A stretch of DNA of 64,000 nucleotides from Thysanoteuthis rhombus (lineage: Eukaryota > Mollusca > Cephalopoda > Oegopsida > Thysanoteuthidae): contig OY735237.1 of NCBI GenBank assembly GCA_963457665.1, positions 5,911,332 through 5,975,331 of the forward strand, read 5' to 3'. Under the pieces are notes generated by a model that searched no databases, was not told where the DNA came from, and saw nothing but the letters and a program-made list of their open reading frames with translations. Below are positions 10,000-63,707 of this stretch, in pieces. A program made the translations under genes and the position numbers. How positions within the stretch are numbered: the stretch's first letter is position 1; each line of letters begins with the position of its first letter.

Positions 10000-10436
10000 A
10001 TTCTCAATTTCTTTTTCCTTTCTCTCTTCGTCCCTTTCTATTTCTCTCTCTTTCAATTTCTCTCTTTTAATTTTCTTTTTCTCTTGGACTTTTCTTTCTT
10101 CTTCTCATTCTTTGTCTCAGTTTACTTTTCCCTATTCTTCCTTCCTCTCTTTGTCGTTATCTCTTCTTTCATTCTTTCTAGATCTCCTCTTCTTTTTTTT
10201 TCCTTTATTTGTTTCTTCCTTTCATTCTTCCTTAATCTCCTTTTTCTTGCTTTCTTTCCTTGTCTCCTTTTCTTTCTTTCTTTCTTTCTCTCTTTTCTTT
10301 CTTTCTCTCTTTTCTTTCTTTCTTGCTTTCTCTCTTCTTTCTCCCTGTCCTTGTCTCCTTTTCTTTCTTTTTCTTTCCTCTCTTTCCCTGAATCCTTTTC
10401 TTTCTTTCTGTCTTTCTTTCTTTCCCATCTAATCAT
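10000..10436. repeat. Polypyrimidine (CTTT/TTTC)n tract
   Basis: About 430 bp nearly all C and T on the + strand, with TTTCTTTC units. The frames seen here (Phe/Ser-rich forward, Lys/Arg/Glu-rich reverse) are artefacts of composition. Confidence 0.85.
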
Positions 10437-21927: not shown

Positions 21928-22048
21928 ATGTCGAGACGGGCGGAGGGTCAGCTCTTCATCGGGCGATTGAGTAAAAATACACGACAAAGGGATTTAGAGG
22001 AAATCTTTGAACCTTATGGCCGAATGCAACGATGTGAGATCAAATATG
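21928..22048 (+). CDS. SR gene exon 1 (coding part): start codon and first half of the RRM
   Basis: ATG at 21928 has A at -3. The frame stays open upstream to about 21784, but this is the first ATG that gives the family-typical MSRR start directly before the RRM. The exon encodes 40 residues through beta1 (RNP2), helix 1 and beta2, ending ..CEIKY plus one base, followed by GTAAGTG. It ends in phase 1. This is a marked GC and CpG rise against AT-rich surroundings. Confidence 0.93.
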
Positions 22049-25000: not shown

Positions 25001-28000
25001 CCTTGTATTAAGGTCAATTGACAATGCCCCCCGGCTCTCTTATTTGAAGTCGAGAGAAAGGTTACGGTTTAATCAAGTTCGGCTTTTGTTGGTTTGTTTT
25101 CAAGTTTTGGTCGGCTTTATCAAAATTATATCTTGAAAATAGGAAGTTGTCTCCTGTTAAGTAGGTATGTAAAAAGAAAAAAATTGACTATGAAATTTAG
25201 TATCTCACTTCAACGAGACTACACGATATCCGGTTAACTAACTAGTTCATCATCCTAAAAGTATTTCGTAATAATAAATGTAAATTTGTGAGAAGAGAAC
25301 CAATGCCTACTATCTCTTCAAAAATTCTATATAAAATGCTTTTTATATTTATATTTGCTTTCTTCATTTGAGATTTTAAAAAAAAAAACATACGGAGACA
25401 AATTTTGTGACGACCACGACGTGACTAGTAGGATTTTATGACACGTCACTAAAACATTTGAAAGCTACATATTCGTGTTTACTGCTTTTACCGCCTTTTA
25501 CAGCAAAGCCGGTTAATAGAGATTCATTTAATCGGTTCAGTCGAGTGGTTCTGATTTATTATTAGTAATCAAGAAAGAGGTGGAGAAAATCTAGTACTAC
25601 TGTGTTTTTTTTCAAGATTAGTCACGCATCGCCATACCTCGTAGTTCGTAATTGAAAACCTGTTGCAGTGTCAGTCAGTACCCACCCCCTCCACTCCAAC
25701 ACTTTCCACTCATAATTGTTTGAAACGGAGGAATTTATTTATTTTTGTTTATTTTTCAATTATCTTTTTCATTTTAATTTTAAAACTGATCAACGTGTGA
25801 ATTGGTGATTTTCTCAATTTGGCTATCCTTGGTTAGATAGGTCCGTGATACGGCAGCCATTTCCTGGCTTTAAAAATGGCTGAAATTGGCCTGATTTAAT
25901 TTCCAGATAAGTGTACATGTAAAATATTGAATATACTCCGAAAACTCCTACACAAAATATGATTATACGACGTCAGATATTAACTCAGTGACGAGGATAA
26001 AAGCCACCTATTTGTTTTTATCTTGATTTTAGAAATGTAAATGAAATCTAACCGTTTTTGAAGCCAGTCATTGTAGAATCCAGCAAACTTGAGCCACTTG
26101 AAAATGACTGTGTTTTCCTCCTATCAAACCAAGGATATCCCTCAATTTAAAATTTACAAACTAGAAGACAAAATTTGATTTAAAAACAAGTGGACACTTT
26201 GTATTTATATTCATATTATGAATTTATTTTTTGGGTATTTTTTCCTTAAAAAAAGTTCATTTTTTTTATATTTGTCATTTGTTTGGTTATTGATTGAGCA
26301 GGGAGTTTTATTATGAATAGTTTTTGACTTATGTTTTACTAATCCCCCCCCACTCCAATCACAAAAATTGAAAGGAAAGCTACCAATTGACTTGTACTCG
26401 ATCATCTTGTTATTAAAGGCTTGTGTGAGACAATTATATCCTTATTAAATTTCCTGTGTATATCAGTGGTAGCCCCTGGTATGTTTTAAGCACATTAGTT
26501 TGTGAAAATTCTCCCCCAAATGTGTTGGGTTCACGTTCACACTCATTCTGATGATGTTGATTATTTGATTTTCATCTATGACCTCTAAGTAGTCAAAGCA
26601 GTGTATAATTGCCAGGAATAAAGAATTAAGGTACCCCTTGAAGAACAGTTTTGATCTGGGGCCAAAAGGTCCTCTATACCTTCTGCAACAACTTGCTGGT
26701 TCTCAGCTAGTTATCTTTTGATCTTAGAATATCTTTTTTGCTCAGTCAATGTCCCCTTGTTATATTAGTTCTACAAATCTATTAACGATTATAATTTCTG
26801 TCATGGCAATATAGTGTTGCCAAATTAAAATAACATTGCATGATATTTCTTTGAATGTTCTTCCATGTACATGAAAGCATCTACTAAAACTACTCTGACT
26901 TGAAGTATCCATTCAATTTGAAGGATGTATATTTTTGAAAAAAATTCTTTCAACATTTCTTTGTAAATACTTGCTTGAAGAGTACCACTAATATATTGGG
27001 ATCAGTGTGGACCTCCCACTATTAGGTTGGAAATTGCCTTATTCTCTAAATCATGGTATTGCGGTTTTTAAAATCTCACTATGATGTGCTATTTTTTCTG
27101 TATTATGACAACAAGCTTTCAAACAAACCTACAGATATCAAATCAAATTATATAGTAAACTCTTGTAACTGTGCAGCTTAATGGCTCAGTTGTTTTTATA
27201 TTCTTGCAAGACTATTGTTAGAGATTTATTTACTGCTACAGCACATGAAGATTCAGGTACATTATTTTTATTTTATTTTTTCAAGAACTGAAACTAGTAA
27301 ACCCTTGAATGTCGCCTAATTTAACATGGGGCTGTAGACAGTGAAAGGCTAACAAAGTCATTTTTGTCTGTTCTTTTTGGTTTCTCATTATCAATATACT
27401 TAGTATGATATCCACCAATTAGGAAGGTACTTTTAAATCCCTGAAGGTGCTGTTATAACATGTTTTCTGTATTGAAGAAATCTCTGCCGACTCATACTTT
27501 CAAAGCTTGTTCTAATGATACATTTTGTCTTTCTTTTGTAGGTGCTGAAATGGGTGAGTTGTTTTCACATTTCAATTAAATCATTAAATTTGGAAAAGAA
27601 AATGTAAAATTCAAAACCTTTGTTACACCCAGCTACAAAATCCTTTTTTTTGGCGGGGGTTACTAGTACTAATTAGCCTTCCTAAATTCTCGTTTGATTT
27701 AGCAAAATTTACAGATTTGGTTGAATGATGATGTCAAATCTAAATATTCAGTAATTTCAGTTTTATTGTATTTTTTGTTCTTTCGCCCCTTTACTGTTAT
27801 AATTAGAACAGTGTCATTTAAAATATCTTCATGAAAGTTTTTCCTATCATTATATATTGAAAATATTTCTCAACTAGTATTCATAACTTACTTTCAAAAT
27901 TATTTTATTTCACTGTTAGTCGTTTTAGTATACCAACTGTATCTGACCTGTGTCTTGTTTTAGAGCCCCACAGGCCTGAAAACTTAGGTAGGATCTCCTT

Positions 28001-31000
28001 GTCAGTACTTTTCTCTGTCGAAATAATTGTATTTTAGAAAGAGGAGGCACAGCATTTCTTATTGACTAGTTACTGTTATGTACAGTCAAGCAATCATTTT
28101 TTCTTGCTGTCATTTCATGAGGTTGTGTCAGGTTATACTATGCATGTAAACAGCTTTTTATTCCATGGAAGGAACATATGTTCTATAGTGCTTTTCATCA
28201 TTGCATCTAAACTGTCCAAAAGCTGCATAATTTTACCAAATGTATGTTTGTAGTGGAGGTGTAGGGTAGCCTAACAGCATGAGGAATTGAATTGGTGAGC
28301 TTTGTCTGAACTCTGGCTGAGACTGTTCATGTTTTGCTATGCTCTACTCCCCAAGCTGTAAGTGAATAGTAAAGCGAACTGGACTCTATAGCTATTGTTG
28401 GCAACCAGTCTAGGAGTCAGACAACTTGGATTCCAAACCTGTCGAAGAAGAGATTCTCTCTCAAGCCATGTTTCCCTTGACACACCTATGATGAAAATCA
28501 TCTGTGGGGCCTCATGACTGTTCACTGGTTTATGAGTTGGAGAAAAAAATTGTTAGCTAATTAAACTTCTGTAGTTTCTCCTGGTATTGACATGAATATT
28601 GGTAAATACTGTTGAGATATGACAAATACAAGTTGTTTAGCTTGTGTGGTTGCTTCGTTTTGATTGAATTGTGTAGTATCATGATGCCACACCCAATAGA
28701 GTTGGTTATTGCTACAACTTCTTTAAACAGCATTAGAATTCTTCCTATATTCTAAAAGATCCAGATATAATGGATTAGGCTTTAGTGAAATGCATTGGAA
28801 CTATGACTTATGGTTCCTGACTTTTTTCTTTTTAAGCAGATTCGCATGAAAGGGCAATATTATGTACGTTTCATTCTGTTCTTGTATAATTGTTCCTATT
28901 AAGTGGCTATTTCTTGTAACCAATATTCCATTTAACTAGAATCCACTTATTTAACATAAGGAATCCTGTTGTTTCTGCTATTTCAATATTCCTAAAAATT
29001 TGCCTTGATATGAAAACTTACAAACATATTTATTGCAAATTGAATTTGTAATTTTTTTTATTACAGTTTTCTGCTTTTTTCTTCTTACAAGCATGTTGAA
29101 TTTATTTGCTTTCTCCCTTTTTTACTATCAACACCTTGTCAATTAATGTCTGTTATTTGCACTTTATTCCAAAAATTCTTGAAAAAATCTTTTTAGGAAA
29201 ATCTAACTATTTTAATAATTGTTATACTAATACTACCATTTTATAAACATGGTGGCTACAGATCAGGTTGAAAGTTTGATTTGGACTTTTGCTAGCTAAC
29301 TAGCTCTTGTAGCTCAGTTGGCAAGAGCAGCAAGGCATTAACCTGGTTCCCCTCTGGCACAGAGACATGAGTTTGAGTCCCACTGAAAGCTTATTCTATT
29401 TCCAATCCACACTTTTTACTCACTGCCATAGATTGATGGCCTGAGAAAAGTTGCAATAAAAGCAACAGAAAAATCAAGATAGTTGTCAAAAATTGATAAG
29501 ATTTTATTTTATTTTTTCTTACATGTTTTTTGGTAACAGATCAGTAATTTTTAAATTTCTTCTCCTATAAAATAGAATTTAGTTGACTATCATCTTGCAA
29601 AGTCTGCCATTCTTTCAGGAAAACCATTTTTAGTTTTCTAAAACATTTCAAATTTAAAAGGATTATTTTTGTTGCATAATAATGTGTATAGCTTCTAATT
29701 TTGTTGAAACAAAGACTTTTGTCTGGATGTTTTATTCATTGCATTGCTTTATCAAGACTGAATCTTGTCTTTCGTTGCTTTCTTCTTACAACATATCAGA
29801 TGCTGTACGCTCGGACTTCTCAGGCGTCTATTAGTATTATTTATTTATTTTTTTTTCTTTTCAAAGCTTAAATGTGCTTTCTTTGTCATGACAAAGTTCA
29901 ATTACTAAAAAAAAAAAGTCAGTGTACAATGGCTGAAATGTGATAACAAGAAAAACTGGAATTAGTCCAAGCAATACAATGAGTAAACTTTTTATCTATA
30001 AATTTTTTTTTTTTTTCTTTTCTTCTTCTCTAACATCAGATTTGATTTTTGTACAAGAAAATCTTTCCTTGTTCATTTTTTTTTCTTTTTTAAACGATAA
30101 ATGACTATCTAGTCTGAATATTAGAGTAAGAAAAAGAATTTTCCATAATGTTGCTTATTTGAAAGGTGTTGAACGACCGGAAATAGCAATTGAAACATTT
30201 TGTTATGACTACCTATCACCTTGTAATTTTTGTGTGTCTTGTCAGAATGAATTTTATAGAGAGCTCAATTATTTGGAGATTCAAATTCATTACTTCGATC
30301 ATATATTTTTGCTTTTATGCTTAAAACTTTTTTTCCCAAACTAAAGGCAAAATGTTAGTGTACATGATTATGAAGCATTTTCTGTATTTGAAACTTTTTT
30401 TCGATTAAAAGAATTTTCAGTTGTATTTAATCCCCTCACCTCACTAGTCACAGCTAGTCTTCAATTATTTGCAAGATGAAATTCAATTTTATTTTTCAGA
30501 TTATCTTTATGATTTACCGGTGTCTTTGTTGGTGTGTTCTCTGATTATAATTAGGTGTCCTTGTACAGTTATTATTGTCCTATCTATTTTGGCAGTATGA
30601 TGGGATTGGAAAGTGCCCCCCCCCCATTAAGCAGCCTATCCCTTCCCGTCTTATTTCTGAATCTAAAGAGGAATGTTTTGAAAAAGTAATTACATCTTGG
30701 TATTAATTGCATTTTCCTTTGAGTTAGAAAATGCCCTGTAAATGACATTTTCTAGAATACTGTAACCAGGAATATTGCACTCCTAATTTGATGATTAGAG
30801 ATGGAAATTCCATTTTAGCAATGATGGATAATTTCCTGTATTGCTTACATAAAATTAAAGGAACTATGGTTTTCAGGAATTATATCCCCCTCAGCTCTGA
30901 TTGTCATTTCAAAGGTCACCAGATACAAATATCTATATATTTTCACTTGACTTTTTATTTCCTCATCTAAAAACCTTGATGAGAACCATTAGGCCTTCTG

Positions 31001-34000
31001 ATCTCTGATATTGAACTCTGAAGTTAATATCTAATTCAGTATTAACATTTCTTCATATGACGTCACAAGGGATAATATGGCAGCCTTTTTCAAATGTGAT
31101 TCAGACTGAATCATATGAAACTTAGTTTTGTTGGGATCTGTGTGGCATTAGCAGAAAAATATAAGGTTGCAGGAAAAAATTAAAATTATTTGTGTACAGC
31201 TTATAGAAACGAAGATACTTTGGAACAAATAGTTCAGTAAGCTATAGTAGTATTAAGAAGAAAATCATTTTTCTCCTCTCTTTGCGGAAAAATTGAGAAC
31301 ATGAATTTATTACACGTCTTAAATCATGTTTGACTTCACAGAGAAACCTTTTGTTTATTTACCCCTGTAGTGCACGTTTTCTTGTTGGAGACTCCTGTTC
31401 AGGTAGCTTGTTTTCTGAAGTTTGCCTCCATTTCATGGGATATTTCAACAAATATTGATGGAACCGCACCTTTCTAGAACATGATTCTGCAAAATCCCAC
31501 TAATAGGGGAGCTACTAAGTCCGTTGGGGAATGGTCATACTGGCATTATTTTTAGTGTAAGGGGGGCTAAAAGTTCACTTTTAAAAATTTCTGCACCTGA
31601 ATTTTGCACATTTTGTGGTCCAGGGGGAGATATACAATCTAACATCCCCTCCTTTCATATTACAAATAGTAATGGCGCATGGCATTTTAATTATAGGCTC
31701 ACTGTGTAATTTGTTATAAGCACACACCCTCTGGTTTTGTGATGTCACAAGGAATCCCTATAGAGGGATGCAAGTCATGTATGCTTACTGTCTTTTTTGG
31801 TACTTGTGAACACTTTGATTTTTTAGCCATTAGTGAGGATATATTGTAGAGAAAAGGTTGAATACGGTTTTTAATGCCTTAGGTCAGCTACTGAAATTTG
31901 AAAAAAAATTGAATTTTCTTTTTTCTTTAGTTGACCATTAACATAAGATTGATAAAAAGAAGAAAAAAAATCTGGAAACATATGATCTAGTATATCTAGA
32001 ATCTATGTAATGTATTATGTATTAGTAAATGATCCTTGAATGTCAACATTTACTTTATTGAAATGTTATTTTTAGATGAAAAACATCCAAATTAGTTCAA
32101 TTAAACCCAAGTCTCTTGAAGTAAACTATCAGAGCAAAAGGGAGATAATTCCTAGAAGCCACCGCACCCCCCTTTTTATGTATGTAAAAATAGGAAATCA
32201 CCCTATTATGATCATAGTAATCGCAAAAATACCTAGAAATTCGTCCAAGCTTATTTTAAAGTGAGGTTATTTGATTTCTTTTGTATTTGTTGCACGATAT
32301 TTTTATTTGAGCTTTGAGCTTCACTGTGTCCATTATGCCTTGTTTTGCAGCATACGCCTTTGTTGACTATGAAGATAGGAGAGATGCTGAGGTATGTTTC
32401 TTGTTTGCTGTTTTTGGTAAAGAATAACATGTGTACAATTATTTGTATCTTTGCTTTGTCATTTTGTTAATATATTCTGGCTGTGTGGTCACTCAAGTGG
32501 GGGAATCAAACTTTGGTTTTCTTTTGTGGTCTGGTTCTGATATCTTCAAGTTGAAACCCAGAACTCCCAGCCATAAAATACTAGACACTATTTGACGGCT
32601 TGTTTCTCACAGCCTTGGCGTTTCTCATTTTATACGTTCGCTTGTAAAGCTGCCATGATGAGCTCACTGGATTTTACAAACACCTTTTTTTTTTTATTTG
32701 GTTATTGATAGTCTATCTATTTATGTTGTTACTCTCTGAATTTGCTACAGTTTACATTGTTTAGATTCATTGGCTGTTCTGCTCTGTTGAACCAGTCTGA
32801 ACTGGTTGGTTGCCTCTTTCATATGCACTGAACCATCAACATCTTCAGTTCTAGTACCAGAATTAGGAACATTTTTATAAACCATTGGAATTTTCAGTTT
32901 TTTTTTTTTTTTTGTAAAGCTCAATTGTGAAAGAAAAAATTTTTTCACAAACCATTTTTTGATCTTTATAATGAAATTCAATTTCTTCAAATAATGTAAA
33001 GCTCTGTAATATGGTCTTTATCTAGATCCTGTGACAATTCAAAGAGTATGTTTGTCACATAACTTGACCCTTTCCTCACTTCACTCCTGTGGTAATCAAT
33101 AATGCTAAACAGCTTACCTAACATTCATTTTTTGAAACGTAAGAATTATATTTTCCACTTGAATCGTGAATCAAACTATTAGAAAAGAGTTTGATTACCA
33201 CTGTCTTCGGGGCAGATTTGATTACCGTATATATTTGTGTATAGGTCTAGTTTTTTGACAAAAAATTAGATCTAGCTATACTTGTATGATTTTATGAAGT
33301 TGGAATTCATACATAATGGGAAGGACTACAGCAACCATTGGCTCCAAAAAAGAAGGATATATAATGGTTACTGCTAGCAAATGAGGCATAAAATATATAT
33401 ATAATATATAAAGCATACCATGGCCATGAATCAAGGAATCAACCTATACACTAGTATTTACGGTACTCTAAATTTGAATTTGTACACTCCCCCATCAACC
33501 TTCATATTTAATGTTGTTATCAAAATATGGTTTGTGATTAGTAAAATAGATTTTATTGTCCAGTTCTTATAAATAGATTTGTCTACTAATCAAATTTTGT
33601 TTCAGCTGATTAAATCTTGTTGAAGTCTTTCAATAAGACTTTTTCTTATTTAATTTTTTTTTCTTGGCCTTATATAGCTTATCTGACCTACTTGAGCCAT
33701 TTCTGGAATCTTTTAAACAAGTATATAATTGCATTGATTTCTGTGTGAAATCTTTTGATTTGAGTAACCCTTTGGATTTTTCAAACGTATATTCTCCCCT
33801 CATACTTTAAAAAATATTTTGGAGTGTTGTGAAGTCTTCATGTTGTCAGTGGATGTCTCAACTTTGTTTTGAAGAAATTGAACAAGAATTAAATAAATGC
33901 ATTGATTTAAAAAAAAAAAAAAATTCCAAGTCTTTAGGAAAAAAAAATTCCATTGATTTTCATTGGCTAAAAAAAAAAAAAGAACTTTTGAACTGTTCAG

Positions 34001-41418: not shown

Positions 41419-43822
41419 CATTGAAATATACCTGGAATTTATCGGCACATGAAAATGCTGTACACTAATAGCTTTAATCCTCATGCTTAGCCTCTTCTGC
41501 ACTGGATTTTCATATCCATTTAATGCTGTGTGTATTTAAACTTTTTTTTCTTTCCTACATTAATCTTCATTGTTTTTCATTATTTACATATATTTGTAAT
41601 ATATGTCTGTGTACACATAATTATATCCTCTTTAACTTTGCCTTGAATCAGTTAAATTTGCTGAGATCATAATATTTGTATAAAGTTTGTTTGAAATGTT
41701 ATTCAGTTTTGAAATGAATAAAAGGCATTTGGACCTTTTGGGGGTTTATTCTGGTGTCTTATATTTTTTAAGAAAAGAGATTCCCTGACTGGTATTTTTG
41801 AAGAAAAAAAGACATGGTTTTCTTGCCAATGGTTTAACCACCTCCACTATCCTCTTGGTAAAGAGAAAGATGTATACAAAATTATCGTCTTATTGAGATA
41901 GATTTCCCTCGGTTATGAAATCAAAATATTTCGTCTTAGAGAAATGTCTTACTTGTGTAAGACAGCTCTATATACATTACATCTGTCTAAAATTGTTGGT
42001 TTTTGTCCTATTCTGTTGGAAAAAAATCTTGGTGGGTAAAAATGCACCTCTCACAAGGAAAGGTTTTCTAATCTGCGAGTTAGAATTCTCAGGAATACTG
42101 ATAGAAACATCTTCGTGTTTTCTAGGATTGTCATATCAACCAGCCTCAATTCTATGTGAGATTTTATAATTCATCCTGACATTTTCATGTAGTCTCTCAA
42201 CTGCCAAATATAAAAGTTTTTTCAATTATCTACAATACTTCATCTAGTGGTAAGCATAAATAATGAAACTTACTTTAATAATACTATCCGTTCTCATGGA
42301 AACATGTTACTGATAGTTGAGATAATGAATCTGTAAAAAAAATGTGAAAATTGACCTCTGTGGCTGTGGAAGAGCTATCATAGCAGTTGGGTGTAAACTT
42401 GACTTCTCTCTGGCGTGAGGGACATATGCTTGATTCTCATTAGAGAACTACTCTCTTTTTCTGACTGGAGTGTTTGCTAAAAAAAAAACAAATGAAGTTA
42501 TTGAGTGACAAAATTAATGGAATATTCAATTACAACCTTCGTTGGGCATCTGGACTTATTGAAAACCGGTTTCAATCTATTCAAATTTTCTTTCAAATTA
42601 CTCTATGGGCAATATTTCACTTTTGTAACCAGGGTTGGCCAGTTTGAGCGACGAGGGGAGATAATTCGAGCTTTATCTGATAGACTTGAACTAACACAGG
42701 TTTGCTTGATTTCCAAAATCCAATGCTATTCAATGCCAGTGTTAAGCAAGTCTTGGTGATGAACCTCTTATTATCTCATTTTTTAGGTTGATCTGGCAAC
42801 CCTATCTATAATGTTTTGAATAAAAGGTTGGTGGTTAAAATTGGTTGGCCATGTCTAATAAATATTTCAGCTGCTTAACTTTCTTGTATTAATAACTTTA
42901 GCCTCTCTATCATTATTACCATCTATAAATATCTTGAAAGAAAATTAGTGGGAAATGGAAAAAAAAAATTTTTAAGGAAATGAAGAATAGAAATGTTAAT
43001 ATTTTTTCATTGGTCAGAAAGTCCCGTTCCCTAAATTTTAAAGATATATTTTTAAATTTGAATAATGATGTAAGCCTTTCCAATACCTTTTGAATGTTTT
43101 TTTTTTTTTCTTTTTCTTTTTTTTTTTTTTTAGATTTTTTTTTTGGCAGTTGTTTAATTCCAGGGTTTCTTTTACGCTTTCAGGATGCTATAAAGTACGA
43201 GAATGGCAGAGAAGTGTGCAGCTCTAGCATTATTGTGGAATGGGCCAAAGGAAACCCAAGACGACCACTAGTCAGTAATGTAAGTATTTTTTTCCTTTCA
43301 ATCTAATGGTTGAATGGCTACCAATGAGTATTTATACTGTACAGTAGTTAATCCAGTTATATTCAAATTTCTATGAGATTATTTATTCAGAAAAAGAAAA
43401 TACTAAACTTGTCTCCTAGTCCAGCCAAGGTTTGTCCTATGGCCCTTCAAAAGTTTACAACGTCAGTTCTGGGGATTCTGACCCTGGGGCAGCACCTGCC
43501 CATTCCATTTTGATGAGAGTGCCAGTAGGACATTTTTGATGCTTTTGTGACATCGGTTGTGGGAACTGAGCCACATGTATGCTAAACTGAGCGTGTCACA
43601 TCCTTCCCTCATAGGAAGGTGAATAAATATCTATTAATCTTGTTTTAGTGGAAGTCTATTGTTTCAAATGGTGGGAAGATATTTTCATTAGTAAAATTGT
43701 TACTTTCTAAGTGAGAGAGTCCATAGTTATGGACAGGGGAAACAGAAAAATTGTTAATCATATAAGTAGATTAGCTCATTGGCCAGGTTAACATAGCTTC
43801 TTTCATTCTTGTGTGTGTGATA

Positions 43823-47000: not shown

Positions 47001-48970
47001 TTGGGCCGGTTGGATATTTTCAACTTTTCCCATCAGTTTTGATCGAGAAGATTGATGATCAAATGAACTTGTATGCAGAAAAGAAGTGGGCTGTCAACTT
47101 GATACCCATGTGTGTTTATGAAATTCGTGTGTACTTGTGAATTTCTTCATAAATAAGCTGCATAAAGGTAATTAAAAACACATCTTCTGTTTCTGCTATT
47201 TTCATGACCATGTCTGTAACTAATTGCATTTAATGTATTACTAACAAACACACCACACATTTTTTGTTTTCATTTAGTGTATCTGATTTTAAAAAAAATT
47301 CTAATTATTACATGATTAATCAACAACCATGTGTGTGCAACTAGCACTAATGACCTCTTCACATTAAAAAAAAGTCTTTCCTGCAATATTACCTATTTTC
47401 AAAACGATCTGTCCACTAGTAAAGACACTATAAACATTTGAATCAACAAACCCATTTTCTGCAAAATCAGTAGAGGACTGGGCTTTGGACACAGGATGTT
47501 GAGAGTTGAGCTCTTGTGAAGGGCCTGAAGAAACAATCCATTTTACCTATTTTTCTTTCTATTTCACCTCATGTTAAATAGGATTTCGATCCAAATTTGC
47601 CATCCAAATTCAATGACTTAACCCAGGCAATGCTGCGCAACTTTACTACTCCTATATAAAATAATTTTGAAATTAAAAGAATTAAAATCACCTACTCCAA
47701 AACTTTTATCTTTTCAGGGTTATGATGAATGTTATCGGTGTCATCGGCCAGGCCACTGGGCTAGAGATTGTCCCGATGACCGCTATTATGGTTACAGAAG
47801 GCCTGGTCGTAGCAATTATTACAGATCACCTTCTCCCAGAAGACGTCGACGGTAAGTACCGAACTCTTTCATTGCCCTTTGAAAGCTAGTTAGTGGGTTT
47901 GCAGGCAAGAGTACAGTTGTTGGTTTGTGGTAGATTCATCTACATCTGTGTTCCTTGACCTTTTTAGGTGATTGCCAAACTGAAACAATTAGATATTTAC
48001 TATTGCCTACAGAACTAATTCTACACTTCAATCCCAGTGAGACCCATTTTGATATCCGATAAGTTTTGAGAGTAAGAGAATTTTCCTGAGAATTTAATAA
48101 AAACCGGAAAATGATATATCTTAAAAAGTACATTCACTTAATCTTTTTCAGTGTAGCATTCAAATTGTCACAGATGGAACTGTTTTTTTGATACTTTCAA
48201 TCCAAGTTGTTAGTTACTTTCTGTATTGTGGTACCTACTTTTAGAAAAAATATGAAATCTCTCATGAATGATATTAATTGTCAGAAATAAATCCTTGAGT
48301 CAACGTAAATTATTTTGTAACTACTGATGAAGGTTGCTCGAAAAGCAGATCTTATCTATTCATCTGTTGCGACATGGAGAAAATTTTCACCAAAAACACT
48401 GAAAATGTTCATTATTGGTTTGTGTGGGAGGGAGGCAAAATCAGTTTGTTTTTAGGAAAATAACTTTTTTCAATCTTGTTTGATTTAAAAAGAGAAAAAA
48501 AGATACATGAAAACCTTTGATTTTATTTGTTGCTCATATTTTTTAAATTTCATTTCACCAGATCACGTTCTCGATCTCGTTCAAGAGATAGGCGTCGTAG
48601 ACGATCACGATCCCGATCTCGTAGTCGTGACAGGAGGAGTAGCAGTAGAGAACGAAGGCGCCGGAGCCCCAGCAGTGAGAGACGACGAGGTCGTGACAAA
48701 CACAGTCCTGAGAATTATAAACGAGATAAAAGTGCATCGAGGTCCAAAAGCCGGTCGCGGTCAAAGTCTAAATCTGCCAGCCGGTCACGGAGTCGCTCTC
48801 CCAGTCAGTCAAGAAGCAGATCTCGTAGCGCCTCCAAAGTAAAGACAAATGGTGAACAGGATGAAGTTGGAGATAAGCCAGGTCGATCTCGATCTCCCAG
48901 TCGGTCACGCAGTAGGTCCAGAGACAAGTTTTCAAGACAGTCCAGAAGTAGAAGTGCTTCCCAAAGCTGA
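21928..48970 (+). CDS. SR-family splicing factor: RRM + CCHC zinc knuckle + RS domain (six core exons, complete)
   Basis: Core exons 21928-22048, 32351-32391, 43184-43279, 45873-45914, 47718-47851 and 48562-48970 join without a frame break (843 nt, 280 residues plus TGA). All introns are GT-AG. The protein starts MSRRAEGQLFIGRL: RNP2 is LFIGRL (residues 9-14) and RNP1 is AYAFVDYE (41-48), so the RRM spans about 8-80. A zinc knuckle with C105, C108, H113 and C118 follows, then an Arg/Ser-dipeptide domain from about 140 to the end. Such proteins bind pre-mRNA exonic enhancers in the nucleus, and the phosphorylated RS domain recruits the spliceosome (family knowledge). An RRM followed by one knuckle resembles vertebrate SRSF7, but the RRM (GRL..TR.RDLE, YAFV.Y.D.RDAEDA) is closer to plant RS2Z proteins and SRSF4-6. 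No orthologue symbol is assigned. Intron 1 carries optional microexon candidates listed separately. Confidence 0.93.
27542..27553 (+). CDS. Candidate 12-nt microexon of the SR gene
   Basis: A strong pyrimidine tract ending TTCTTTTGTAG is followed by GTGCTGAAATGG and then the donor GTGAGTT. Length is 12 nt and flanking phases match (phase 1 in, phase 1 out), so inclusion turns ..KY-AYAF.. into ..KYGAEMAYAF.. without a stop. It would add four residues in the loop between RRM beta2 and beta3. Both splice sites are close to consensus, making this the best of the microexon candidates. The inclusion rate is unknown. Confidence 0.55.
27964..27987 (+). CDS. Candidate 24-nt microexon of the SR gene
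   Basis: Acceptor CTTGTTTTAG, 24 nt, then GTAGGATC. In phase 1 it adds EPHRPENL before AYAFVDYE with no stop. It lies 410 bp downstream of the 12-nt candidate. The donor is weaker (GTAGGA). It could be alternative or mutually exclusive with its neighbours, or a chance splice-like match. Confidence 0.4.
   Translation, partial: SPTGLKT
28270..28510 (+). mobile_element. tRNA-related repeat, family C copy 1
   Basis: Shares with 60415-60665 the phrases CTGAACTC(T/C), GTxxATGAATAG.., TTGGACTCT..TAG, GGCAACC and GTCGAAGA, in order. Confidence 0.5.
28840..28863 (+). CDS. Second candidate 24-nt microexon of the SR gene
   Basis: A good pyrimidine tract (CTTTTTTCTTTTTAAGCAG) is followed by 24 nt and the donor GTACGTTT. 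In phase 1 it encodes DSHERAIL and then changes the next residue to Ser before YAFVDYE. Its length and phase are identical to those of the candidate at 27964-27987, and His and Leu fall at corresponding positions of the two peptides, which could hint at exon duplication. Transcript support is required. Confidence 0.35.
29301..29470 (+). mobile_element. tRNA-derived SINE
   Basis: The A box TAGCTCAGTTGGCAAGAG (29310-29327) and B box GAGTTTGAGTCC (29369-29380) are spaced about as in a tRNA. The SINE body then follows: TATTTCCAATCC..ACTTTTTACTCACTGC and a tail TTGCAATAAAAGCAACAG. The acceptor stem does not pair, so it is not a functional tRNA gene. Confidence 0.75.
32351..32391 (+). CDS. SR gene core exon 2: RNP1 strand of the RRM
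   Basis: Acceptor TGTTTTGCAG and donor GTATGTTT bound a 41-nt exon. It begins in phase 1 and, joined to exon 1, encodes AYAFVDYEDRRDAE, the RNP1 motif with aromatic residues Y42 and F44 in the RNA-binding positions. Direct joining of exons 1 and 2 gives a beta2-beta3 spacing equal to that of SRSF4-type RRMs, so the form without a microexon should already be a canonical RRM. Confidence 0.93.
33223..33465. mobile_element. MITE with terminal inverted repeats
   Basis: The left end TACCGTATATATTTGTGTATAGG and the right end (reverse complement TACCGTAAATACTAGTGTATAGG) are inverted repeats with few mismatches. No coding capacity. The terminal type recurs singly at 22567-22584 and 22943-22961. Confidence 0.7.
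34623..35080. mobile_element. Short non-autonomous hAT-type element
   Basis: The ends CCGTTGTTCCCAAA and (reverse complement) CTGTGGTTCCCAAA are short inverted repeats of hAT type. They are flanked by GTCTAGAT (34615-34622) and GTCTAGAC (35081-35088), an 8-bp target duplication with 7 of 8 identical, as hAT elements make. Confidence 0.7.
38298..38545 (-). pseudogene. Gly/His/Asn-rich retro-pseudogene fragment (hnRNP- or TDP-43-like tail)
   Basis: A GC-rich island inside an AT-rich intron. One minus-strand frame runs about 82 codons with a single internal TAA and ends at TAG. It includes LGSHGQGGGIGSSTTSW, DGNVHNGHGHMV, then SGFGTGKGDHGNMANTKG, ETGLAIGS and ..YSAAFG. The spacing (GxAIG.. SxSN ..FG) recalls the glycine-rich C-terminus of TDP-43, but I cannot align it by search. 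No intron is needed, consistent with a processed copy, although no poly(A) follows. It could also be an unrelated Gly-rich protein fragment. Confidence 0.4.
38889..39325 (-). pseudogene. Candidate processed pseudogene or minus-strand terminal exon with poly(A) tail
   Basis: A minus-strand frame (39304-39101) encodes MALVDECKNHSMKIEKQFCC and later HYYPPIYSDQYPHLPSNHH, ..RFKFPQGYQ, with amino-acid usage unlike the random AT-rich frames nearby. After its stop, another frame continues MTTPEEGQRVQQPECGNYNL and DEDPSLDKSVDNEFFFG, suggesting one frameshift. Downstream on the same strand come AATAAA-type signals (about 38955) and a 17-nt A-run (38907-38891). CCTTTTCAG sits just before the start, so a real spliced terminal exon is the alternative. 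I do not recognise the protein. Confidence 0.4.
39930..40212. mobile_element. Foldback/MITE element, copy 1
   Basis: The left arm GGTTGCCAGATTTGG, CAGAAGGGGA.., AGAGACTTACCCAAC, AGGCATTGGAATAG is matched in inverted order on the right by CTATTCTAATGCCT, GTTGGGTAAGTCTCT, CCCCTTCTGGCC and CCAAATCTGGCAAC. Arms are about 80 bp around an unrelated centre of about 120 bp. Confidence 0.85.
40748..40802. repeat. (TA)n microsatellite
   Basis: Uninterrupted TA run. A longer one at 41349-41416 lies in the same intron. Confidence 0.95.
42631..42803. mobile_element. Foldback/MITE element, copy 2
   Basis: Starts AGGGTTGGCCAG and ends CTGGCAACCCT. It shares with copy 1 the terminal sequence, the (A/G)GGGGAGATAA block and TATTCAATGCCAGTGTTAAGCAAGTC in the right arm. 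Shorter and more decayed than copy 1. Confidence 0.65.
43184..43279 (+). CDS. SR gene core exon 3: second half of the RRM
   Basis: The acceptor is TTTACGCTTTCAG and the donor GTAAGTAT. The exon is 96 nt, phase 0 on both sides. It encodes helix 2 and beta4: DAIKYENGREV..SIIVEWAKG, ending with a Pro/Arg-rich linker. The order matches helix 2 and beta4 of SR-protein RRMs. Confidence 0.93.
43280..45872 (+). other. Intron 3 of the SR gene
   Basis: Contains the tandem duplication with two (TA)n arrays (43780-44105) and a stretch starting CAGGGTGGGTGAGAATTACT at 44486 that looks like a transposon terminus. Otherwise non-coding, with a G-run at 45505-45512. Confidence 0.55.
43780..44105. repeat. Recent tandem duplication containing (TA)n arrays
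   Basis: The unit GGCCAGGTTAACATAGCTTC..GTGTGTGTGATAT, (TA)n, GTATTTGTGTGTGCTCCGCAC.. to GTGTATGACTCT occurs at 43780-43964 and 43965-44105. The unique parts look identical. Only the TA array differs in length (about 72 against 35 bp). Confidence 0.9.
45873..45914 (+). CDS. SR gene core exon 4: 14-residue linker
   Basis: This 42-nt exon lies between ATTCTATTCACAG and GTATGCTC, phase 0 on both sides. It encodes RPRHFGTGDAAKEK, a basic linker between the RRM and the zinc knuckle. Because it is 3n and symmetric it could be skipped without a frameshift. Confidence 0.85.
45915..47717 (+). other. Intron 4 of the SR gene
   Basis: Begins with a CT microsatellite (about 45934-45965). I see no other repeat with a clear boundary and no coding frame with coding character. 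Confidence 0.5.
47718..47851 (+). CDS. SR gene core exon 5: CCHC zinc knuckle and start of RS region
   Basis: Acceptor TTATCTTTTCAG and donor GTAAGTAC bound 134 nt. It encodes GYDECYRCHRPGHWARDCP, a complete CX2CX4HX4C knuckle with the aromatic and Gly-His spacing typical of nucleic-acid-binding zinc knuckles. A Tyr/Arg-rich stretch and SPSPRRRRR follow, opening the RS domain. Confidence 0.93.
47852..48561 (+). other. Intron 5 of the SR gene
   Basis: 710 bp of AT-rich intron. Nothing recognisable beyond the splice sites. Confidence 0.6.
48562..48970 (+). CDS. SR gene last coding exon: RS domain and stop codon
   Basis: The acceptor CATTTCACCAG joins in phase 2 to exon 5. The frame encodes dense RS/SR and RD dipeptides, an SPS/SSERRR segment, a K/S-rich middle (SKSRSRSKSKSASRS), a short acidic interruption (NGEQDEVGDKPG) and a second RS block ending SRSRSASQS before TGA at 48968-48970. 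Other long frames here, on both strands, are shadows of the repetitive codons. Confidence 0.93.
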
Positions 48971-52289: not shown

Positions 52290-52470
52290 TGTTGCTTTTT
52301 ATTGCAACTAAACTCTGGCTGGGTACTCAGCAATGAGTAAATAAAGTAACAGTGCAGATTGGAACAAAGAATGAGTTTCAGTTGAGAATCTAACTCACAA
52401 CTCTTTATACTGGAGACTGGCTTGCTTAATGCACAAATGTTCTTACCACTGAACTACTGGAATTTACTGG
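52290..52470 (-). mobile_element. tRNA-derived SINE (reverse copy)
   Basis: Reverse reading shows AGTTCAGTGGTAAGAA, GAGTTAGATTCTCAACTG, a body with TTGTTCCAATCTGCACTG and TTTACTCATTGCTGAGTACC, and a tail GTTGCAATAAAAAGCAAC shared with 29301-29470. Confidence 0.7.
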
Positions 52471-59400: not shown

Positions 59401-61361
59401 CAATGAGACATTTAGCGTGCTCACAACTAAAATGTTATACAGCAGTGATCTTGACCTTTTATATAAAAAAACAACTGCATCAAGCTACAGTGGTTAGATC
59501 TTTAAACCACACGTACAAATTTGAACAATGAAGGAACTTGAAGAGCAACATATTTGTGAAGGATTCTGTTTCAAATTGGGAAAAACTTTTTGGAGATTTT
59601 TCTAGTATTGCAACTATGCCAATTCCAATCGGAGGGACATCCACTCAAGACTATGCCAAATCTGGACGACACTCTGTGTCAAAGGATGACAATAACATTA
59701 AAAAAGTGCACATTGTGATTTGTGAGCTAAATTGGTCCCTAAAATTGTGTCTGGCAGTATACACGCTTGTTTTTAGGAGAAAATGTTTTTTGTGATCACT
59801 GCCAGCAAAAATAGAAACTTATTTATCGATTATCCTTTTTTTCTGATTTTTTAATTGATCAGCTCCTACACGGCATGCTGCCAAAAGATGTTCGTCGCGT
59901 GATGTTTTTTTTTGAGTGACTAACCAGATCTGTTTGAATATTTTTTGCACTAGTCATCATTTTTAACAATGGTGTTTTTTTAAAATATTTTCTTTAGTCT
60001 TGTTTTCTACCCCAGTGAGTAAACAGTATTGATTGGAAATAGATGATAAGCTCTCGGGGAGACTCCACACCATTTTACTTGCTATTGTAGACAGAGCCTA
60101 AGTAGTTCATGATCTGATGCCACAAAAATTAAGAAAAAAAAACATCTGTCATAAAATTAATAATAGTTCACAATTCATCATCAAAGTTCCTGACATTGAG
60201 AAGTGATTAAAATTCTGTAGACTTACTTGTAAGTTTCTTCTGGAAGGTTAAACTTTTTCAGATACACAGTTTCTTTGAATTTTTCTGGGTTTTTCTGATA
60301 CTGTTGGCAATCTTCTTTGAAGTTTTTGGAAACAAAACAAGTCTGAAAGAAAAGAAGTAAATATTATTTGAAATTTTGAGATAAGCCATTATCATTACCC
60401 CACGATGTTGCAATTGTTGTAGCTGTGATGGTATGGAATTGGCAACCCGAGTTTGAACTCCAGTCAGGGCTGATTACGTTCACTTTGCACTAATGTCCTT
60501 GGTAAAGGCATGAATCCATCTCTTCTACCCTTCTCCCAGCTATGGGTAAAAGTGTATGAATAGCAGATTGGACTCTCTAGTTTTGGGAAGGCAACCCGGT
60601 CGAAGAGAAAGAGAACTCTGATTCCAAACCAGGGAGTGGTGCCCCCTTGATGGAGTTTGACACTCAATTTGATGTCCTTCCAGCAGACCTGTTTATTCCA
60701 ACTAAGTGTAATGGAAGTTAACTTCCTTTCATGTTGAAACTTGATACAGATTTTTCATTTCTAAATAATATACAAAGTATATATTGTTGATGGATTTACA
60801 TATAAACAATAAAGGATGTAATACAAAGAATATGTCATATTTAAGATGCTATTATTCAACATCTTCATATTTTCTTCATACGCTGATCATTCATAAATTC
60901 TATAGCACAATTTTGTTTTTTCAGTCATCCTGTAGTGCAAATATCCAAGGTAGAGCATTATAGTGTACACAGCCAAGTAGACTGCAACCCATAATAGAAC
61001 TAGAGAGTTGCCTCTGATTTTTATAGAAAAGCAATAAAAAATAAACTACTGTCTCTATATAATTGAAATGTTTCTAATCAATTGCACTTATTACTGCTTT
61101 TCCCTTTTCAATAAAATTGGCTTCATATGGAAGATCTCTCTTTTAATGAATTGTCACAAATCATTTCACAAGATAATAGTAGGGTTCACTCACCTGTTCC
61201 ATCACCAATCGTACAAGAAGTTGCTCTAAGGGAGAATACAGAGGGAAGTTTTCTGAAGTCAGACCGGATCGTAATGACTGTCGAATTTTGGGGGCACCAA
61301 AGGACTGTATAGTGTGTCCAGCATCAATCACAAAACCTAAAAATGAAAGTTAGGTAATTTG

Positions 61362-61445
<84 letters not shown>

Positions 61446-63707
61446 TAGTAGTTGGTTACTTAAATGAAAAAAATGTGTCTGTATATACTTAAATATAAAG
61501 AAATGTATATGTTTCATACACATGAACATTGATACTTATAAGTAACAGAAATAGAGAAAATACATTTCTAGGTACTGAAATTCTAAATTCAACACGGCTT
61601 GGAAACACTCTTTCCAGTGAACACACATTGTAACTTGGCTTTATTATTCCAAGATGCCACTATGGCAGAATTTCATCTTATTCCAGTGAATTTCAAGTAA
61701 ATTACAATAACATCCTATAAATCTATTTATTTAAAAGTAAAGATTTTTAAAAAATCCCAAAAGCTCTGAGCACCAATGACAAGGAAAGCATCAAAAGATT
61801 AACAAAAAAGCCTTACTTTCAAAATAGTCCCTTTGGAGGTGGTAAAAATATAGAAGAATAGAAACTACTTGTGTGTTGTACAAGTATCTTGAGGAGGCTT
61901 TTTTCATTACAATTTCCAAGTAAAACTTAAAGATAAAACAGTAATTTGGCCTCATAGGATGTATATATTGTTAAAAACAACTATATCTAATTCCTGCTAA
62001 AGTGGGTTGAAAAGTATACTGAATCATAATTCAATTATAAAAAACAATGAGTAAGAAAAGTGTAAAGAATGTATTGACTCAATGTCTTGGTAAAAAAAAT
62101 TAATAAGATGAAAAACTAGTACTCAAAATAGCAATAGTAATACATATATATATATACCTGTGAATGTGTTTTTAGACATATTTGTTGAAAATGCACAGTG
62201 CTCAATATTTTAGTAAAAAATGAAAAAAAATAGAGCTTATAAATTTTTTAAAATTGATTTATTATTGGACTCACTACAATTTGACAAATTGTTTTGATGT
62301 CTTTACATCTTTTCAAGCAAGTAAATGCGACCGAATTGTCTATTTTGAAAAATTATTATTTTGCACACGTCGTTGACAGTTTAGCTCAATTGTAAGAGTT
62401 ACGCTATGGTAAAGTGGCCACCCTGTTGATTGCAGGTTCGATTCCTGCAACATCCCCATTTTCTTTGATTGTTTATTCTATTCACAAAATGATACATTCA
62501 CCATGTAACAACGGGAGGTTATTTCAAATATAGTTTCATTATAATATATTGCAATTATGATCATTCTGTCGGATCATACATCTATTTCCTAATATCATAT
62601 ACATATATATGTGAGATTATGCATTTTCATATGGGATGAATATTTAAAGAAATTCTAAGGAAAGTAGAGGGAGGGGGAGAGAAGAAAGTGGAGGGAAAGT
62701 AATAAAGGAAGGAAGGAGGGGAGGGAGGGAAAGTGGAGATGGAAAGTGAGTGAAGAGAGATGCGGGGGTAAAGGGTGGAACAGAAAGAAAAAGGGTGAAA
62801 GTGGAGGGGAAAAGGGTGAATTTTGGGGGGTGAAAGGGAAAGAAAAAGGGTGTATGTGAGAGGAGGGAAGAGGGTGAACAGGTGATGGGGAAACAGTATG
62901 AATGGGGAAGGTGAAGGGGGAAAACAGTGAAATCGAATGTGGTAAGAGGAAGGGTGAAAGGGAAAGTAGAAGGGTAGGGAAGGTGGAGGGAGAAAGGTTG
63001 AAGAGGGGAAGGGGGAGGAAAAAGGGTGAAAGGGAAAGTGGAGGGTGAAAGTGGAAAGGAAAGATGGAAAGAGTAAAAGGGAAAGACTATAAGTGATAGG
63101 GAAAGTGGAGGGGGAAGGAGTAGGTAGAAGGAGGGGAGAAAAGGGAAAAGGGTCATAAAGAAAGGTAGAAGGAAAACAGAGAGAAAAAAAGGATAAAAGG
63201 CAAATTGGAGGAAGAAAAAGTGATAGGAAAAGTGGATGGATAAAGGGTGAAAGGAGTGAGGGTGAGAAGGTAGTGATGGGAGGGGTGACTGGACAGAAGG
63301 AGGAGAGTAGAGAGAGGGAGGAGAGGGGAAGGATGTAGGGAAAGTGGAAGGAGAAAAATGAAGGGGAAAGAAGAAAGGGAAAAAAGAGAGTGGCAGTAGG
63401 GAGGGAAAGAAGGGGGAAAATGGAGGGAGGGAGGTCAATGGAGGGGAGGGAGGACATCTGAGGGAAGAAAGTGGAAGGAGAATGAAGTGGACGTAGGTGG
63501 GTTAATAAACTTACCTTCATAGATTGGTAGGACTTCAAGCCTCTCTCCAATGTCAACAATAATTCCAGATTGAGCGTTGTACGAATATAAAGCCAAAAGT
63601 GCTTGTGGTGCCATACACACTCCACAAACTTTGAACTGGTCTATCAAAATATTCATCAGGAGGGATTTCTCTTCATCTCTGATGTTCAGTGGTAAAATTA
63701 ACATCAC
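56257..63707 (-). CDS. Divergent actin-related protein, C-terminal 282 residues (gene continues off the right edge)
   Basis: Six minus-strand exons, 63707-63515, 61336-61194, 60342-60227, 59002-58856, 57174-57075 and 56406-56257, join in frame (849 nt including TGA). Collinearity with actin is clear. LLALYSYNAQSGIIVDIGER..PIYEG matches actin phosphate-loop 2 and its YEG. RSIYLSGGVTLIPGFANRLE matches the adenosine motif LSGGTTMYPGIADR. The end RYHAAYIGACAL..F...CITSEEW matches actin's Y.VWIGGS.LA....F....I.K.EY. Identity elsewhere is low and the protein ends ..FQKWKMTS without actin's KCF. Most ARPs act in cytoskeletal or chromatin complexes (family knowledge), but the subfamily is not recognised, so no specific role is assigned. 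It converges with the SR gene. Confidence 0.88.
57075..57174 (-). CDS. Actin-related gene exon: adenosine motif
   Basis: 100 nt between TTTCTATTTCAG and GTGAGATG on the minus strand. It encodes SIYLSGGVTLIPGFANRLEA then ELSKHLNETLVIQ. The LSGG and PG(F/I)A(N/D)R residues of the actin adenosine-binding motif are conserved. Confidence 0.9.
57995..58125. repeat. Interspersed repeat family B, copy 2
   Basis: Direct-orientation relative of 18395-18525, with shared ends and internal substitutions. It lies in an intron of the actin-related gene. Confidence 0.7.
58350..58625 (-). pseudogene. LINE reverse-transcriptase C-terminal fragment
   Basis: The minus-strand frame reads ICGDMEEFIEHTFFHC followed by NVIHPLYELIEGYM. 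C..C(G)D.EE.IEH.FFHC....PL is the post-RT zinc-binding region of many non-LTR retrotransposons. An in-frame stop lies two codons before CGD, so the copy is dead. Confidence 0.65.
58856..59002 (-). CDS. Actin-related gene exon: actin residues about 254-294
   Basis: 147 nt between TGTTTTTCAG and GTAATTAA on the minus strand. It encodes ISHSLSRFVSPEGLFNTDLW.. then ..LVKNAIEACPMDNRRHLC. It matches actin ERFRCPEALFQPSF..ESCGI..T...I..CD.DIRKDLY. Confidence 0.88.
59175..59340. mobile_element. Two SINE fragments facing each other
   Basis: 59175-59285 read in reverse has GTTTGAGTCTTGCCCAGAGC and CAATCGGCACTGTTTACAC. 59286-59340 read forward has AATCTCACCCAGAGC and TTCCAATCTGTGCC. The opposite orientations suggest two insertions or an inverted rearrangement. 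Confidence 0.55.
59529..59712 (+). pseudogene. Mariner transposase N-terminal fragment
   Basis: One frame reads EEQHICEGFCFKLGKT, the start of a mariner HTH region. After a frameshift and deletion another frame reads DYAKSGRHSVSKDDNNIKKV, like the mariner motif (D..RSGRPS.S..D.NI.KV). Family A copy 9 begins immediately after it. Confidence 0.65.
59715..59937 (-). repeat. Interspersed repeat family A, copy 9 (inverted, partial)
   Basis: AATTGGTCCCTAAAATTGTG, ACACGCTTGTTTTTAGG, GGCATGCTGCCAAAAGATG and GAGTGACTAACCAGATCTG match the reversed family. It abuts a mariner fragment inside an intron of the actin-related gene. Confidence 0.68.
60000..60110 (-). mobile_element. SINE fragment (reverse)
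   Basis: Reverse reading has GGAGTCTCCCCGAGAGC, then ATCTATTTCCAATCAATAC and TTTACTCACTGGGG, the tail shared by the other copies. Confidence 0.55.
60227..60342 (-). CDS. Actin-related gene exon: actin residues about 216-255
   Basis: 116 nt between CTTTCTTTCAG and GTAAGTCT on the minus strand. It encodes TCFVSKNFKEDCQQYQKN.. and ..KFNLPEETY, matching actin KLCYVALDFEQEM...YELPDG. TCFV.. is also the spelling found in some ARPs at this place. Confidence 0.87.
60415..60665 (+). mobile_element. tRNA-related repeat (SINE), family C copy 2
   Basis: The head has a B-box-like GAGTTTGAACTCC, followed by CAGATTGGACTCTCTAG, GGCAACCCGGTCGAAGAG and GATTCCAAACC. It corresponds to the copy at 28270-28510. 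Confidence 0.55.
61194..61336 (-). CDS. Actin-related gene exon: actin residues about 168-215
   Basis: 143 nt between TTTTTAG and GTGAGTGA on the minus strand. It encodes (G)FVIDAGHTIQSFGAPKIRQ.. through ..LEQLLVRLVMEQ. It aligns with actin YEGYALPHAI..LDLAGRDLTDYL..; the usual GRDLT segment is replaced, so this is a divergent family member. Confidence 0.85.
61363..61442. repeat. (TA)n microsatellite, about 80 bp
   Basis: Uninterrupted TA run just upstream (on the minus strand) of the acceptor of the 61336-61194 exon. Confidence 0.95.
62372..62456 (+). ncRNA. tRNA-like sequence (tRNA pseudogene or SINE head)
   Basis: A-box-like TTAGCTCAATTGTAAGAG (62381-62398) and a B box GGTTCGATTCC (62435-62445) in a perfect T-arm, TGCAGG/CCTGCA around a 7-nt loop. 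The acceptor arms pair poorly (GACAGTT with AACATCC). The stretch between the arms, GGTAAAGTGGCCACCCTG, does not form a standard anticodon arm. So it is tRNA-derived but probably not a working tRNA gene. Confidence 0.5.
62645..63500. repeat. Purine tract (GGGAAAGTGGAGG-type), about 850 bp
   Basis: Almost pure G and A on the + strand (CT on the strand transcribed as the gene's mRNA-sense), built from degenerate GGGTGAAAGGGAAAGTGGA units. The long Pro/Phe/Ser-rich minus-strand frames across it are artefacts. It lies directly next to the donor of exon 63707-63515. Confidence 0.9.
63515..63707 (-). CDS. Actin-related gene exon: actin residues about 103-167
   Basis: On the minus strand TTTCTTCGTAG precedes GTGATG.., and the exon ends GAAG before GTAAGTTT. 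It encodes VMLILPLNIRDEEKSLLMNI and continues to GIIVDIGERLEVLPIYE plus one base. DIGER.EVLPIYEG replaces actin's DSGDGVTHTVPIYEG, so Asp and Gly are kept but the GDGVTH stretch is changed. Confidence 0.88.

Follow-up and report, generated by a model that had tools for sequence, protein, structure and literature searches.

On balance, the first intron of a predicted SR-protein gene in the squid Thysanoteuthis rhombus appears to contain one genuine 12-nt microexon, designated m1, whose inclusion would be constitutive or predominant and would lengthen the β2-β3 loop of the RRM by four residues. Three further segments of this intron had been proposed, in an earlier sequence-only reading, as members of a microexon set that could tune the RNA-binding surface of the protein. 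In the reading favored here, m2 would most likely be unused or serve as a minor cassette, and m3 and m4 are probable decoys that resemble splice sites by chance within old repeats. Splicing of m1 into the transcript, at whatever frequency, is considered very probable and the inclusion of m2 unlikely, odds that reflect judgement and not a computed result. The sequence argues for one ordinary microexon and one open candidate, m2. Should m1 be real, the RRM of this protein would be annotated incorrectly by pipelines that overlook exons shorter than ~15 nt.

Gene model and relationship to known SR proteins

The window, i.e., the whole stretch of 64,000 nucleotides that was analyzed, corresponds to C42:5911332-5975331 of a genome of 2,731,506,558 bases in 514 contigs, which was also searched. 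Five exons (Table 1) were predicted from domain matches and homology, phase, and splice sites. Exon 4 was identified by scanning for motif and phase after the junction between exon 3 and the RS exon proved to be out of phase. Joined together, the five exons form a closed frame of 266 amino acids.

Table 1. Exons of the gene model and candidate microexons of intron 1, in order along the window
Feature	Positions	Strand	Length	Content and splice signals
Exon 1, coding part	21928-22048	+		MSRRAEGQ..., first half of RRM; ends in phase 1 before GTAAGT; RRM_1 match
m4 (candidate)	26467-26478	+	12 nt	VVAP; poor pyrimidine tract; acceptor score -0.15
m1 (candidate)	27542-27553	+	12 nt	GAEM; acceptor TTTCTTTTGTAG; donor GTGAGT; branch-point-like CTAAT 27 nt upstream
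m2 (candidate)	27964-27987	+	24 nt	EPHRPENL; donor GTAGGA; branch-point-like CTGAC 18 nt upstream
m3 (candidate)	28840-28863	+	24 nt	DSHERAIL, next residue A -> S; tandem acceptor AAGCAG; weak donor TAT/GTACGT (slash, exon end)
Exon 2	32351-32391	+	41 nt	RNP1, AYAFVDYEDRRDAE; starts in phase 1; score 15.0
Exon 3	43184-43279	+		End of RRM, DAIKYENGRE...GNPRRPLVSN
Exon 4	47718-47851	+		CCHC zinc knuckle (GYDECYRCHRPGHWARDC...); PF00098 26.7 bits, cut-off 20.8
Exon 5	48562-48970	+		RS domain, stop codon; frame closed

The predicted gene product is an SR protein that has a single RRM and one CCHC zinc knuckle. The N-terminal RRM of the form containing GAEM matched PF00076 with 55.5 bits (cut-off 20.7), and RS/SR dipeptides account for 69 of the 151 residues from GRSNYY to the C-terminal end. 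PF00098 matched one stretch, and the pattern C-x2-C-x(3-5)-H-x(3-5)-C, scanned along the window's + strand, likewise gave one. Exon 3 has two in-frame donors nine bases apart, just before the zinc-knuckle exon: a weak one at 43271 (GTCAGT) and a strong one at 43280 (GTAAGT).

Among solved structures, the closest RRM is that of SRSF6 (69.9 bits), with SRSF7 at 43.9 bits. The sequence-only assignment of the domain to an SR protein was right. The SRSF4/5/6 proteins are not known to carry a zinc knuckle, whereas the squid protein has one. In combining a zinc knuckle with an RRM of the SRSF4/5/6 type, the protein resembles the plant RS2Z proteins. An RS domain is common to the squid protein, the SRSF4/5/6 group, and the RS2Z group, but RS2Z proteins are described as carrying two zinc knuckles and one RRM (PMC3173450), while the squid protein has a single knuckle. 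Lottia is not named in the main text of that study. The RSZ/SRSF7 arrangement pairs an SRSF3/7-type RRM with one knuckle; the squid protein has one knuckle, and its RRM, which matches SRSF6 better than SRSF7, appears to be of a different type.

Searching the squid genome with the RRM gave 11 matches among 40 candidates scored, two of which were the gene's own exons 1 and 3. No close paralog or retrocopy keeping the spliced form was present among these matches, the next best being 32% identical. Relatives were absent from the viral contigs and the bacterial and archaeal genome contigs searched, and a literal peptide search of the literature gave no match.

Candidate segments measured against chance and repeats

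The coordinates, lengths (12, 24, 24, and 12 nt for m1 to m4), AG/GT borders, and phases given for the four segments in the sequence-only reading all proved correct. A microexon is an exon of at most 51 nt (PMC6600660) that is spliced into mature transcripts, and the candidates agree with it in length and borders. Each segment is stop-free, lies between exons 1 and 2 in phase 1, and adds whole codons, so that m1, for example, would give EIKY-GAEM-AYAFVDY in the loop. As had also been proposed, the insertion point falls directly before RNP1. SRSF6 runs straight from β2 to β3 there, with no extra residues. The loop may contact RNA or position it, and the four residues added by m1 may alter RNA contact. 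Skipping all candidates leaves a complete RRM, again as claimed, with a Pfam score of 56.0 bits and a gapless alignment to SRSF6 (69.9 bits with a 114-aa query). This gapless match of the closest solved SR RRM to the skipped form counts against m1. The GAEM form aligned to SRSF6 with a four-residue gap at 63.9 bits with an 86-aa query, and the two SRSF6 scores are not strictly comparable because the query lengths differ.

Insertion of m1, m2, or m3 raised the Pfam score of the RRM from 56.0 to 58.9, 58.8, and 61.0 bits, respectively. This gain was rejected as evidence for any candidate because ten hand-typed control inserts, some of which permuted the candidate peptides, gave 55.1-60.8 bits. 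For m1 in particular, the gain lies inside the range of five arbitrary four-residue inserts (55.7-59.5 bits).

Acceptor, donor, and branch point were scored with approximate metazoan matrices that were not trained on this species, a point that counts against m1. Four scoring variants consisted of two polypyrimidine versions, each with and without the branch-point term. Two controls were used, namely 500 dinucleotide-preserving shuffles per variant of intron 1 (10.3 kb) in 300-base blocks, and 20 random loci of the squid's own genome on five contigs, amounting to 400 kb of strand. In all four variants m1 ranked first among the 3-51-nt candidates of intron 1, and it scored above exons 2, 3, and 4 each time. 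A frame-keeping candidate equalled it in a fraction of 0.004-0.008 of the shuffles, and none of any frame reached its score in the 400 kb of random strand. When candidates of any frame were counted, 1.0-5.4% of shuffles equalled m1, a point against it.

The remaining candidates fared less well. With the branch-point term m2 ranked second in intron 1, and without it fifth or third; frame-keeping candidates equalled it in 0.074-0.462 of the shuffles, and 27 candidates in the random strand reached its score, seven of them frame-keeping (0.175 per 10 kb). The corresponding shuffle fractions of 0.290-0.934 for m3 and 0.782-0.910 for m4 are at chance level. Branch-point-like motifs precede m1 (CTAAT), m2 (CTGAC), and m3 (CTGAC); as support for m3 the motif was rejected, since m3 stays at chance level with the branch-point term scored. 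For m3 and m4, the sequence-only figure of one to three fortuitous matches in every 10 kb is roughly correct. It is high for m1, for which frame-keeping matches of equal grade number 0.004-0.008 per shuffled 10.3-kb intron. Its caution that some candidates may be fortuitous was well placed. The proposed set that tunes the RNA-binding surface is not supported as a whole: m1 clearly beats chance, m2 is undecided, and m3 and m4 are at chance level.

Over both strands of the whole window, six candidates scored at least 14, with m1 second and exon 2 fifth. The rank of exon 2, which is known by homology, indicates that the scoring detects real short exons. The top candidate, at 61194-61225 on the - strand (32 nt, donor GTGAGT, score 19.8), outscores m1, which weighs against m1, and two of the six candidates have this donor in common. 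It is perhaps an exon of an actin-like gene, and it can be read either as a true exon picked up by the scoring or as a fortuitous match that surpasses m1. An actin-family reading frame that is an exon of another gene lies at 63435-63707 on the same strand (PF00022, 30.8 bits, cut-off 27).

The repeat context also separates the candidates. In the genome search, which skips very common words, the block 27400-28000 holding m1 and m2 found only itself, and the m1 block sits between repeats. The m3 segment lies in an interspersed repeat found at 39 other places among those scored (91 first-look candidates), 17 of which span the whole of m3. Of 20 copies that were fetched, 11 cover the acceptor, 6 of them with AG, and 17 cover the donor, 6 of them with GT, so the repeat does not carry the m3 splice sites invariably. 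Likewise, m4 lies in repeated sequence found at 18 other places, seven of which span it entirely at 74-82% identity. On the + strand, an abundant old repeat at 27190-27400 (936 first-look candidates, 69-84% identity among the matches listed) ends near the unmatched block containing m1 and m2. Another abundant interspersed repeat (886 first-look candidates) at about 29265-29445 on the + strand has a start that looks tRNA-like by eye and may be a SINE. No tRNA was called by ARAGORN anywhere in the window.

Alternative readings of intron 1

The acceptor of m1 scores 8.6, as compared with 5.4 for exon 2, and its donor 5.3, as compared with 5.2. Because both sites are strong and no other donor scoring at least 2 occurs within 300 nt of the m1 acceptor, regular inclusion is the simplest reading of m1, and because m1 outscores exons 2-4, regular inclusion fits better than choice. 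Direct joining of exon 1 to exon 2, with none of the candidates spliced, would agree with the complete, gapless RRM of the skipped form and with the tendency of long introns to yield candidate sites by chance. The standing of m1 relative to the shuffles and the random genome speaks against it, and we regard direct joining as distinctly unlikely. It is rather unlikely, though somewhat less so, that m1 and m2 are both real and are used alternatively, singly or together, to give loops extended by 0, 4, 8, or 12 residues. The two share a phase, keep the frame, and occupy the same unmatched block, and m2 is preceded by an exact CTGAC and takes second rank when the branch point is scored. On the other side, m2 is equalled by chance in 7-46% of shuffled introns, frame-keeping equals occur in random strand at the rate given above, and its donor GTAGGA is weaker than the donors of exons 1-4 as annotated. 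The further step, in which m1 and m2 alternate across squid tissues so that a zinc-knuckle SR protein with loops of +0, +4, +8, or +12 residues changes its own RNA targets, has a slim prospect of being correct.

The full model of the sequence-only reading, in which three or four microexons are used alternatively at a single site, draws on the phase match and open frames of all four segments, but m3 and m4 reside in repeats and are equalled in 29-93% and 78-91% of shuffles, respectively, which makes this model most improbable. Nearly as improbable is a role of the m1 sites in recursive splicing of the 10.3-kb intron or in terminating a longer poison exon that would begin near 27286. A GT does follow the m1 acceptor, but the donor regenerated there has a score of -0.7, compared with 5.3 for the actual donor of m1, and recursive splicing at m1 was rejected because of this weakness. 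Weaker acceptors within 300 nt upstream of the m1 donor, at 27286, 27447, and 27478, could pair with it to form longer, frame-shifting exons, a possibility that counts against m1 and is given low weight. The acceptor at 27286 (score 4.2), joined to the m1 donor, would define a frame-shifting exon of 268 nt; it falls far below the m1 acceptor, however, and lies inside the highly repeated segment 27190-27400.

Comparison with other small exons and further observations

The idea of an exon that alters this loop is not new in kind, because it has been published for bee elavl2, where alternative exons 3a and 4a lie in the β2-β3 loop of RRM2 and 3-nt and other microexons occur as well (PMC8553928). 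In both cases small exons fall within the β2-β3 loop of an RRM in a splicing regulator. Bee ELAVL2, however, is an ELAV/Hu protein with three RRMs whose alternative exon use was demonstrated by transcripts (PMC8553928), whereas the squid gene encodes a predicted SR protein with one strong candidate microexon. Tissue-specific choice of m1 and m2 would mean that very small exons adjust the surface through which a splicing factor contacts RNA, something reported in part for bee ELAVL2 (PMC8553928).

Neural microexons that depend on eMIC/Srrm234 are very short and frame-keeping, as is m1, and they are described as having weak 3' splice sites with UGC motifs nearby (PMC8797185). The m1 candidate differs in its strong acceptor, and TGC is absent from the 45 nt upstream of m1, m2, and m3; the exon 2 acceptor has two UGCs. 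A search of the genome for the eMIC domain (PF15230) gave no matches, but the 14 controls gave none either, so that this zero carries no information. Our literature searches returned no microexon report for octopus and nothing on microexons in connection with RRM affinity. Literature on microexons that names cephalopods was sparse, in one case amounting to a mention in a reference list.

Other features of the window and genome were observed in passing. An Rfam tRNA match at 52374-52463 on the - strand, just above its gathering score (30.2 vs 29 bits), is possibly a tRNA-derived repeat. Low-complexity reading frames of considerable length, with more than one frame open, occupy 62627-63640 on the - strand, and the last 2 kb of the window show a strong GC skew. 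Together these features suggest that the + strand carries a purine-rich repeat. On the mitochondrial contig (C198), COX1 occurs at 10313, 17488, and 30857, equivalent to two copies per 20,544 bases, in a frame in which TGA is read through. Duplication of COX1 is a feature common to this contig and an oegopsid squid mitochondrial genome reported to have 20,851 bases and six duplicated genes, cox1 among them (PMC7800340).
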